Source of the DNA: Chloroflexota bacterium
GTDB lineage: Bacteria > Chloroflexota > Limnocylindria > Limnocylindrales > CSP1-4
Length of the DNA stretch: 35,600 bases
NCBI GenBank assembly: GCA_003165675.1
Contig: PMNU01000012.1
Span: 43,545-79,144, forward strand
Reading direction: 5' to 3'
The translations under genes and the position numbers were made by a program. The notes below the pieces were generated by a model. That model was not told the origin of the DNA, ran no database searches, and saw only the letters and a list, made by a program, of their open reading frames with translations. Each line of letters starts with the position of its first letter. The first letter of the stretch is position 1. Below, in pieces: positions 4,234 through 15,982 of the stretch.

Positions 4234-8865
<4,632 letters not shown>

Positions 8866-13256: not shown

Positions 13257-13904
13257 TTACGAGATGTCGCCCGTCGGCTGAACAAGGAAGATCCAGACAT
13301 CCCAGGCGCAGTGGCTCACGATGAGGGCACCAATGGGGACGCCGGCGGCGTAGAGCGCGCACCAGTGGGCTCCGGCCACACCCGCCGCGCCCATCAGAGT
13401 GAGGTTGCCCGTCGTGACGTGCACGGCCGAGTAGGCCGCGGCCGCCACTGCCGCACCGGTCCACCGGCCATAGCGGCGCATTAGCGCTTCCTGGACCAGG
13501 CCCCGCCAGAACAGCTCCTCGGCCGGGCCGACGATCGTTACCAGGCGCGCCGCCGTCTCTCCTCGCGGAGCGAGGTCCCGCAGCGAGTAGATGTCTCGAA
13601 TCTGGTCGTCGCCGCCCGGGACGAAGCGCCGCGCGAACCGGTCGCCGAGCCTGAACGTGCCGTAGAGCGCGGCCGCCGAGGCGAGGCCAAGGGCCACTTC
13701 CCGAGCGCCGATGTGTGTCCGCCGAAGACGTGGATTGGCGGCGAGCGCCAGGCCTCCGAGGACGGCACCGGTCGCCGTCATGCGGCTCCAGAATCGATCG
13801 CGCGGTCCCCGGAAGGTTGCCGCGAACGCCGGCAACGCCGCGGCCAGACCGAGGGCGGTCGCCGCCTCAAGGGTCCGGCTCCGAGCGGGCAATTGGCCGG
13901 CCAT
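13257..13904 (-). CDS. CPBP-family intramembrane metalloprotease (CAAX protease-like)
   Basis: 215 residues, several hydrophobic helices. The three CPBP motifs are present: EExxxR as E129-E130-L-F-W-R134 (AEELFWRGLVQEA), the histidine of the second motif at H162 (AYSAVHV), and HxxxD as H198-C-A-W-D202. In characterised members the glutamate and histidines cleave substrates within the membrane; bacterial members act in peptide processing, immunity or sigma-regulator cleavage rather than on prenylated proteins. The ATG overlaps the stop of the upstream LLM-UbiA gene as TGATG, so the two are translationally coupled. Longer open sequence upstream is only that gene read in another frame. Confidence 0.88.
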   Translation of the reverse strand: MAGQLPARSRTLEAATALGLAAALPAFAATFRGPRDRFWSRMTATGAVLGGLALAANPRLRRTHIGAREVALGLASAAALYGTFRLGDRFARRFVPGGDDQIRDIYSLRDLAPRGETAARLVTIVGPAEELFWRGLVQEALMRRYGRWTGAAVAAAAYSAVHVTTGNLTLMGAAGVAGAHWCALYAAGVPIGALIVSHCAWDVWIFLVQPTGDIS

Positions 13905-15982
13905 CACGGCACAACCCGGGCCGCGAGCAGCCCGACCACGAGCAGCAACCCGAAGGCGAAGTGGAGTCGGGCCGTCTGGAGGTCGATCATGGCAATGGCT
14001 CGGGCCTGGCCGGTCGCGCCGAGCTCCGCCGAGCGGACCACCTGGGCCAGGAACGGCAGCGAGAAGACGGCAATGGCCGTGGTCGACGGCAGCCAGCGAA
14101 GGGCGACCGCCAGACCGAGCGTGACATACGCGCCGAGAACGAGCGCCAGGTATCCATAGTGGGCCCAGTCGCGCCCCAACCGAGTCGACAGCGTGACGAT
14201 CCCGGCTCGCGTGTCCTCGCCGATGTCGCGCCATTCGTTGCCGTGGAGTATGGCCGCCACGAGCAGCCCCACCGGCAGCGAAAGGACGAGCGCCCGCAGG
14301 TCCCAGGCTCCGGTCACGGCGAAGTAGGAGCCGACCACCATTGTCGGGCCCATCAACAGGAAGACGATCGGCACGCCCATAGCCCGGTACTTGTACTGGA
14401 ACGGGGGCGCCGTGTAGGTGTAGCCGGCGACGACGCCGACCAGACCGAGTCCGACGATGGCGGGACCGCGCAGCCAGACAAGATAGGTTCCGATGACGAC
14501 CGCCGCCGCGAACAGACCGAGGGCGAAGGCGTAGGCGCCGCGCTCGCTGACTCGACCCTTGAGGACGGCGTGGCTCATCCGGGGGGACGTGATGGTGTCG
14601 ACGCCCCTGCGGACGTCGTAGACCTCGTTGATCACGTTCGTGCCGGAGTGGAGCAGCATCCCGCCGGCGAGGGCGGCCAGGAACGGAAGAAGCGAGAAGC
14701 GCGAGTCCACTACTGCGAGGGCGCCGCCCGCCAGGACCGGGATCGCCGACGCGGTATAGGCGAACGGTCGCAGGATCTCGTACCCGGCGGCAACCCGGCG
14801 ACGAACCCGCTCGGAGAGCTCGAGCCGGCGATCGTCCGCCAGTCCGGTCGGGCTGCGACCGGTGTCGTCGGAGGATGGGGGTGCCGGCTCGGCGGCGGCG
14901 GGGCTGGTCGATGCAGCGGCCGCAACCGCCTCGCGCTTCACCGCGGCCCGATCCGGCAGGGCGGCGTACAGCTTCGCCGCCTCGATCAGCTCGATCGTCT
15001 GGGCTTCTTCCTGAACCACCGGCTGGAGAAGCGGCAAATCGAGACCGGTCTCGGTGTGGAAGGCCATCGCCCTTGCCGCGACGTCCTCTCGGGTGCCGCA
15101 GAGCATGAAGGCGTCCAGGAGATCGTCGGGGATGAGCTTTCCGGCTTCGTGGTAGTCCTCAGCCCGCCAGGCGGCGGCGATTCGGTCGCGCATCTCGCGG
15201 GAGAAGCCGGCTCGCTGGAGCGACACGTCGCCCAGGATGGACATCATGTAGATCACGAACGGCTCACGCTTGGCCCGGTTCAGGGCCTCGCGGCGGGTCT
15301 TGTCCACGAGTGAAAGCAGGTAGGCGGCGGTGTCGACGTCGGCGGGATCGCGGCCGGCGGCCGCCGCCGAGGCACGCAGCCGCTCCAGGATCCCACGCAG
15401 CGAGGGGATCGACTCGCACGGGCGGGCGAGGTAGCCGTCGGCCTTGCGGCCGGCCAGTTCCACGAACTCCTTGCGATAGCCGGCGACGTACAGCGGGATG
15501 CGATGCGCAGGCGGGAACATCGGTTGGATGGGCGGCAGGCCGGGAGTCCCCGACGCCACCCGCTCACCGGCCCACAGGGCCCGGAGCTGGTCCATGGTCT
15601 CGCTAACGCGATCGAGCGCATCGGTGAGGGAGTAGGGGATCCCCATCTGCGCGAGGCGCAGCGGTAGGCCCGTGCCAAGCCCTATGACGATGCGCTCTGG
15701 CAGGAGCTCGTCCAGGGAGGAGCCGGTCATGGCGAGGACCACGGGATGGCGCGTGTACGGGTTGACTGCGCCGAGGGCAACGCGGAACGAGCCATCGGGG
15801 TCCGTCGCGAGAGCGCTCGCGATGGCCGAGCCGTACGTGACGGCGTCGCGCTCGAAGTAGGAATCGTGGATCCAGATGGAGTCGAGGCCGGCGTCTCGGG
15901 CGCGTCTCGTCCAGTCGATGACGTCGGAAATGTCGCCCCGGGCGGCAATGCCCAGACCGACTCGACGTGCCAACGCTCGCAT
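13904..15982 (-). CDS. Fusion protein: LLM flavin/F420-type oxidoreductase plus UbiA-family prenyltransferase
   Basis: 692 residues in one uninterrupted frame from ATG 15982 (GGGAG just upstream). Residues 1-345 read as a luciferase-like monooxygenase TIM barrel: VGLGIAARGDISDVIDWTRR, AGLDSIWIHDSYF, GLGTGLPLRLAQMGI and PLYVAGYRKEFVELAGRKAD. This class uses FMN or coenzyme F420. After an Ala/Pro-rich linker (about 346-385), residues 390-692 form a polytopic UbiA-type domain with both aspartate-rich motifs: NVINEVYDVRRGVD (N449, N452, D456, D462) and NEWRDIGEDTRAG (N582, D586, D590). The second is MenA-like, suggesting prenylation of an aromatic acid such as a quinone head group. The first motif has NE where ND is usual. 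Linking both activities in one chain suggests consecutive steps on one substrate; this is inference. It is coupled to the CPBP protease gene. Confidence 0.88.
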   Translation of the reverse strand: MRALARRVGLGIAARGDISDVIDWTRRARDAGLDSIWIHDSYFERDAVTYGSAIASALATDPDGSFRVALGAVNPYTRHPVVLAMTGSSLDELLPERIVIGLGTGLPLRLAQMGIPYSLTDALDRVSETMDQLRALWAGERVASGTPGLPPIQPMFPPAHRIPLYVAGYRKEFVELAGRKADGYLARPCESIPSLRGILERLRASAAAAGRDPADVDTAAYLLSLVDKTRREALNRAKREPFVIYMMSILGDVSLQRAGFSREMRDRIAAAWRAEDYHEAGKLIPDDLLDAFMLCGTREDVAARAMAFHTETGLDLPLLQPVVQEEAQTIELIEAAKLYAALPDRAAVKREAVAAAASTSPAAAEPAPPSSDDTGRSPTGLADDRRLELSERVRRRVAAGYEILRPFAYTASAIPVLAGGALAVVDSRFSLLPFLAALAGGMLLHSGTNVINEVYDVRRGVDTITSPRMSHAVLKGRVSERGAYAFALGLFAAAVVIGTYLVWLRGPAIVGLGLVGVVAGYTYTAPPFQYKYRAMGVPIVFLLMGPTMVVGSYFAVTGAWDLRALVLSLPVGLLVAAILHGNEWRDIGEDTRAGIVTLSTRLGRDWAHYGYLALVLGAYVTLGLAVALRWLPSTTAIAVFSLPFLAQVVRSAELGATGQARAIAMIDLQTARLHFAFGLLLVVGLLAARVVP

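Follow-up and report, generated by a model that had tools for sequence, protein, structure and literature searches.

The stretch of DNA analyzed here, referred to below as the window, comprises 35,600 nucleotides of a Chloroflexota bacterium of the order Limnocylindrales (assembly GCA_003165675.1, contig PMNU01000012.1, positions 43,545 to 79,144). It carries a gene in which an LLM oxidoreductase domain is joined in one reading frame to a UbiA membrane prenyltransferase domain, followed by a gene for a CPBP intramembrane protease-family protein (Table 1). Pfam assigned residues 12–309 of the fusion protein to Bac_luciferase and residues 413–647 to UbiA, both well above the cut-offs. An AlphaFold2 model based on 42 homologues contains two confidently predicted domains, at approximately residues 1–346 and 388–690, connected by a disordered linker. 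The mean predicted local distance difference test score (pLDDT) is 86.7; because the predicted TM-score (pTM) is only 0.62, the model does not fix how the two domains are oriented relative to each other. The linker is the sole long unconserved stretch of the protein, with a mean majority-residue fraction of 0.10 vs 0.71 in both domains, and it varies in length. At the junction of the two genes, which reads GTGATGG, the TGA of the fusion (13906–13904) has one base in common with the ATG of the CPBP gene, an arrangement that may couple their translation. Pfam and the model thus bear out the initial annotation of this DNA, which had described an LLM domain and a complete UbiA domain in a single 692-residue frame, and the TGATG overlap that it noted is present in the sequence.

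Table 1. Features of the fusion locus in the window.
Feature	Position	Strand	Details
LLM-UbiA fusion gene	13904..15982	(-)	692 aa; single frame in nearly all >80 homologous loci
LLM domain, F420-type TIM barrel, residues 1-346	14945..15982	(-)	PF00296 E 1.1e-46
Inter-domain linker, disordered, residues 347-384	14831..14944	(-)	pLDDT <50
UbiA (MenA-like) membrane prenyltransferase domain, residues 388-692	13907..14821	(-)	PF01040 E 8.7e-32
First Asp-rich motif, N449-x-x-N-E-V-Y-D-V-R-R-G-V-D462	14597..14638	(-)	Residue conservation, 42 sequences
Second Asp-rich motif, N582-E-W-R-D-I-G-E-D-T-R-A-G-I-V-T597	14192..14239	(-)	Residue conservation, 42 sequences
TGATG stop/start overlap of fusion and CPBP genes	13902..13906	(-)	Sequence
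CPBP (Rce1-like) intramembrane protease-family gene, 215 aa	13257..13904	(-)	PF02517

The fusion is real and old. Two genome sets were surveyed, 61 related genomes (the relatives sample) and an even set of 201 Chloroflexota genomes (the phylum sample). The relatives sample yielded full-length matches in 13 of 61 genomes and three more in which one long frame had been reported as two pieces; in the phylum sample the fusion occurs in 25 genomes from ten families. A scan of GTDB genomes provided 80 further loci, with identity down to 51%, whose titles name Chloroflexi, Limnocylindrales, Anaerolineae, Dehalococcoidia, Dormibacterota and Actinomycetes. All 80 have a single open frame except L067, which is frameshifted, and four are incomplete (L084, L093, L099, L101). 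Considering that homologues are fused across phyla and that a frameshift was found in L067 only, we reject a frameshift or assembly accident as the origin of the gene; the initial annotation had named homologues that are always split at residues 346–385 as the finding that would speak for such an origin. The L067 frameshift (5001–7117) lies within the LLM domain of one MAG (metagenome-assembled genome) copy and reflects either a pseudogene or an assembly error. In L093 (5001–7478; G205:C75), LLM, UbiA and CPBP share one 825-residue frame. The junction there is garbled, UbiA is cut at approximately residue 644 and the arrangement was seen in a single genome, so this is probably a deletion or an error and not a natural three-domain fusion.

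LLM-UbiA is a new, conserved domain combination. To our knowledge, no other F420-type oxidoreductase is covalently joined to a UbiA prenyltransferase. The open-access papers searched contained no description of an LLM-UbiA fusion, a literature search for CPBP together with UbiA led nowhere, and the available part of a quinone survey (PMC13386864) does not mention the LLM fusion. Many of the carriers are uncultured soil and groundwater bacteria, mostly oxygen-respiring, and in all 80 cases the record title points to a MAG or an uncultured assembly, a possible reason why the fusion has so far been overlooked.

Alignment of 42 fused homologues revealed that the key residues of both Asp-rich motifs are invariant, namely N449, N452, E453, D456, V457, R458, G460 and D462 in the first (N449..N452-E-V-Y-D456..G460..D462) and N582, W584, R585, D586, D590, R592, G594 and T597 in the second (N582..D586..D590..T597). 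The initial annotation had recognized both motifs and drawn attention to an NE in place of ND in the first. E453 is indeed present, but its invariance across the 42 members makes it a feature of the family and not a defect, and no special meaning attaches to it. The UbiA half is MenA-like, as judged by sequence comparison, but forms its own clade. It has the UbiA fold and the MenA-type spacing of the Asp-rich motifs, its best NCBIfam models are those of 1,4-dihydroxy-2-naphthoate (DHNA) prenyltransferases in 42 of 42 members (TIGR00751, PRK06080), and the nearest solved sequence is that of UBIAD1 (8djk, E 8.9e-22). Unlike MenA, the UbiA half of the window protein falls below the MenA cut-offs (70.3 bits vs 102.15 for TIGR00751 and 152.4 vs 277 for NF004749) and is joined to an LLM domain; a maximum-likelihood tree places the fused UbiA domains in a single group that includes neither the MenA of Men operons nor orphan MenA.

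The window's own genome also encodes a second fusion of a redox barrel to UbiA, consisting of an N-terminal split barrel and a MenA-like UbiA domain (L150:7347–8993; G000:C48). A weak model of the split barrel gave structural matches to the F420-binding protein MSMEG_6526, to Rv2074 and to glutamyl-tRNA reductase-binding protein. Homologues of this second fusion (L026, L027, L028, L029, L033, L151, L152) are found in hosts of the LLM fusion, in genomes that have Men genes and in genomes that have neither.

Surveying the PDB with the LLM domain using Foldseek returned F420-dependent enzymes as all of the top 28 matches, while FMN (flavin mononucleotide) monooxygenases appeared from rank 29 down. 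The first hit was Mer, the F420-dependent methylene-tetrahydromethanopterin reductase (1z69, 8qpl), which shares the TIM-barrel LLM fold with a target TM-score of 0.87–0.90 at approximately 25% identity. NCBIfam models of F420 LLM enzymes were matched by 42 of 42 members, the window protein scoring below every cut-off. The domain differs from Mer in lying far below the cut-off of the Mer model TIGR03555 (114.9 bits vs 348.7) and in having Gly11, at least 90% Gly among the 42 homologues, at the position of Glu6 as read from the alignment offset. The catalytic role of Glu6 is known from the structure of the E6Q mutant, PDB 8qq8, itself among the Foldseek matches. We therefore reject a Mer function for the LLM half. 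Invariant positions among the 42 members include H39, E44, R45, T77, R78, D91 and the stretch R236-A237-K238-R239. The initial annotation had made a flavin or F420 pocket in this domain the test of its assignment; the closest folds are indeed all F420 enzymes, whereas cofactor binding is predicted from the fold only.

Judging from the fold, the cofactor would most likely be F420. In the relatives sample, CofD exceeds its cut-off in 43 of the 61 genomes, among them 14 of the 16 that carry the fusion. The Fo synthase CofH was found in one of the 61, G030. The hosts may take up F420 or its precursor by scavenging or import, or may use FMN as the cofactor instead; as an observation on the group itself, the pairing of common CofD with a single CofH suggests salvage of Fo or F420, or a divergent Fo synthase. 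An FMN-dependent LLM half would act as a monooxygenase, carrying out an O2-dependent hydroxylation or oxidative decarboxylation of a prenylated ring as the ring hydroxylases of the ubiquinone pathway do, and the fusion would then link prenylation to ring oxidation. The LLM family includes such enzymes, most hosts outside the window's genus have oxidases, and Fo synthase is missing from most relatives, but F420 enzymes make up all 28 of the best structural matches as well as the best NCBIfam LLM matches, most hosts have CofD, and COX1 is missing from the window's own genus. We consider this version improbable.

The CPBP protein of the window scored 45.8 bits against PF02517 (cut-off 22.4) and is Rce1-like with an E-value of 7.5e-12. 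In 72 of the 80 loci, the fusion is followed on its own strand by a CPBP homologue, which mostly overlaps it or lies within a few dozen bases of it, and in one further locus, L093, it is in frame with the fusion. Five of the seven loci without CPBP stop at a contig edge, which leaves CPBP in 73 of 75 testable loci; the association that the initial annotation had seen at one locus is thus near-constant. As in the CPBP/Rce1 glutamic intramembrane proteases, the active site comprises EExxxR, His and His/Asp residues, and all of these (E129, E130, R134, H162, H198 and D202) are the same in every one of the 70 members aligned. What sets the window's CPBP protein apart is its tie to a prenyltransferase gene and its scores, which fall well short of the cut-offs of all named NCBIfam CPBP sortase-like families. 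Scaffolding without proteolysis is believed to be the role of some members of the CPBP family.

The second recurring partner is a UbiE/MenG-type methyltransferase, found next to the fusion in about a dozen lineages distant from one another (L063, L064, L076, L079, L085, L088, L097, L100, L104, L157, L163 and L164). All nine quinone-type UbiE neighbours tested scored above the cut-off of TIGR01934, the model for ubiquinone/menaquinone biosynthesis methyltransferases. No UbiE adjoins the window's own fusion. Beyond CPBP and UbiE, no partner recurs across lineages, and a wider conserved neighbourhood was rejected, the ATP-binding cassette (ABC) transporter, GNAT, nitroreductase and glutamyl-tRNA synthetase neighbours being lineage-local. 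In ten loci near the window's lineage (L044, L049, L054–L056, L060, L067 and L101 among them), an S-adenosylmethionine-dependent methyltransferase of approximately 337 residues, weakly UbiE-like, lies at position -1 on the opposite strand and is divergent from the fusion. Two Anaerolineae loci have a stand-alone gene directly upstream of the fusion, a second UbiA in one (L071:1621–2607) and a second LLM gene in the other (L079:3816–4811).

The link of the fusion to missing menaquinone pathways is strong and was unexpected. The menaquinone routes covered were the Men pathway, scored by MenB over the cut-off, and the futalosine pathway, scored by MqnA/D (PF02621). In the phylum sample, MenB was found above the cut-off in 69 genomes and MqnA/D in 33, with either or both in 101, and none of the 25 fusion genomes has menB or mqnA (naive hypergeometric P 4.7e-9, relatedness ignored). 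Approximately 75 of the 201 genomes lack MenB, MqnA and the fusion. Within the window's genus (21 genomes), ten have the fusion, nine have MenB above the cut-off and none has both (Fisher P 2.2e-4); the MenB genomes that were fetched proved, on inspection of the sequence, to have all of menF, D, H, B, A, C and E in a complete Men operon (L145–L149). Both states, the fusion on the one hand and menB or mqnA on the other, occur within five families (f1, f8, f16, f20 and f35), and because the contrast recurs in this way, the exclusion is not the effect of a single clade. The absence of mqnA rejects a futalosine-type menaquinone in the fusion hosts. Hosts of the fusion also differ from those of MenA in lacking menB, which occurs in one of the 16 in the relatives sample (G030), and together with the cut-offs and the tree this rejects a plain MenA identity for the UbiA half. 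No menB was found in the window's own genome assembly. The initial annotation had recommended looking there for a separate menA; one is present (L003), above the MenA cut-offs and orphan. Orphan MenA genes in five fusion genomes (L140–L144) are related to the MenA of Men operons, with no other Men genes nearby; a further MenA without Men genes nearby was seen in L153.

Most fusion hosts should need a quinone. Outside the window's genus, 25 of 26 fusion genomes have the heme-copper oxidase subunit COX1 (fragmentary in G088), and of all 36 fusion genomes tested, 35 have a NuoH-family match, indicating complex I (weak in G026), yet most of these hosts have no recognized menaquinone pathway. The same findings weaken a quinone-independent fermenter lifestyle as an explanation outside the window's genus. 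In that genus (g1), 17 of 17 tested genomes have NuoH and no COX1, and this also holds for those that carry the whole Men operon.

Considering the exclusion pattern, the UbiE neighbours, the MenA-like UbiA half, the F420-type LLM half and the respiratory complexes, we favour a quinone-type reading. We tentatively propose, with a confidence a little short of even, that the fusion and CPBP, joined by UbiE in many other hosts, belong to an alternative pathway for making a respiratory prenylquinone, used by Chloroflexota and neighbouring lineages in which the Men and futalosine pathways are lacking. The data themselves show the fused architecture, the operon with CPBP, the conserved active-site residues, the gene context, the exclusion of menB and mqnA and the respiratory complexes; for the substrate, cofactor, order of steps and product of such a route we infer the following. 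The UbiA domain, given its family and intact motifs, would attach a polyprenyl chain to an acceptor of the aromatic acid type in the membrane. The LLM domain, flexibly tethered on the cytosolic side, would add a hydride to the head group or remove one from it, either ahead of prenylation or once the chain is attached, and UbiE would then C-methylate the ring. CPBP would be an obligate membrane partner, with protein cleavage, handling of a prenylated intermediate and scaffolding as candidate roles. Such a route would resemble the Men, futalosine and methyl-plastoquinone pathways in its UbiA-family prenyltransferase and UbiE-family methyltransferase; unlike in the Men and futalosine pathways, menB and mqnA are absent from its hosts, the menB of G030 excepted. 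The initial annotation had suggested a link to a modified quinone or other isoprenoid lipid, with the protease processing or regulating the fusion. Gene context and presence/absence patterns support the quinone-like link, but they do not extend to the acceptor molecule or to processing by the protease.

Several observations weigh against the proposed route. The pathway search covered the menaquinone routes, which leaves room for ubiquinone or plastoquinone genes in the hosts, and the genomes are MAGs, so that absences are partly due to incompleteness. One exception to the exclusion was seen, G030, which combines a complete Men operon with the fusion. The orphan MenA of some fusion genomes could itself perform the prenylation. 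COX1 is absent from the window's genus with the fusion and with MenB alike, and five genomes (G032, G035, G037, G057 and G059) have COX1 without menB, mqnA or the fusion, which is therefore not the sole alternative. The near-absence of CofH from the relatives counts on the same side.

The orphan MenA genes also bear on a different explanation, in which the fusion tailors a quinone made otherwise. UbiA would prenylate DHNA that is salvaged or made in an unusual way, and LLM would reduce an isoprene unit or the ring, a role comparable by analogy to that of MenJ on the side chain or of Ddn, the F420H2-menaquinone reductase. This would fit the MenA-like UbiA half, the F420-type LLM fold and the retention of orphan MenA, but taken alone it gives no reason for the fusion to be missing where DHNA is made by the Men route. 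MenJ has a fold other than that of LLM enzymes. F420-dependent menaquinone reduction by Ddn is known (PMC8498797), which lends the idea some precedent, although Ddn too has another fold, a split barrel. We regard tailoring as unlikely.

The fusion might instead have no quinone role and make another prenylated lipid or cofactor, such as an ether lipid, an aromatic antioxidant or a modified tetrapyrrole, the exclusion of menB then reflecting lifestyle or niche. The genomes without MenB, MqnA or fusion are compatible with this. UbiA enzymes use many acceptors (PMC4106721), and an F420-dependent LLM enzyme that acts on lipids is known, hydroxymycolic acid dehydrogenase (TIGR04465; PMC6279831). The UbiE neighbours and an exclusion that holds inside one genus and five families fit a quinone better, however, as do the respiratory complexes of most fusion genomes, and we consider a non-quinone product rather unlikely.

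Returning to the alternative quinone route, its boldest form would make the LLM-UbiA/CPBP/UbiE set a third, undescribed route to a respiratory quinone, possibly of a new type, in aerobic uncultured Chloroflexota and their neighbours that have neither of the known menaquinone pathways; we hold this to be possible but doubtful. A 2026 genome survey assigns most lineages that lack quinone pathways to Bacillota and Chloroflexota and suggests that there may be undiscovered quinones (PMC13386864). For the Chloroflexota, the fusion gives this gap a concrete, testable gene set made up of the prenyltransferase together with a redox partner and a methyltransferase. It marks the genomes to examine, and it predicts that its carriers would contain an unexpected quinone, or an unexpected route to a known one.

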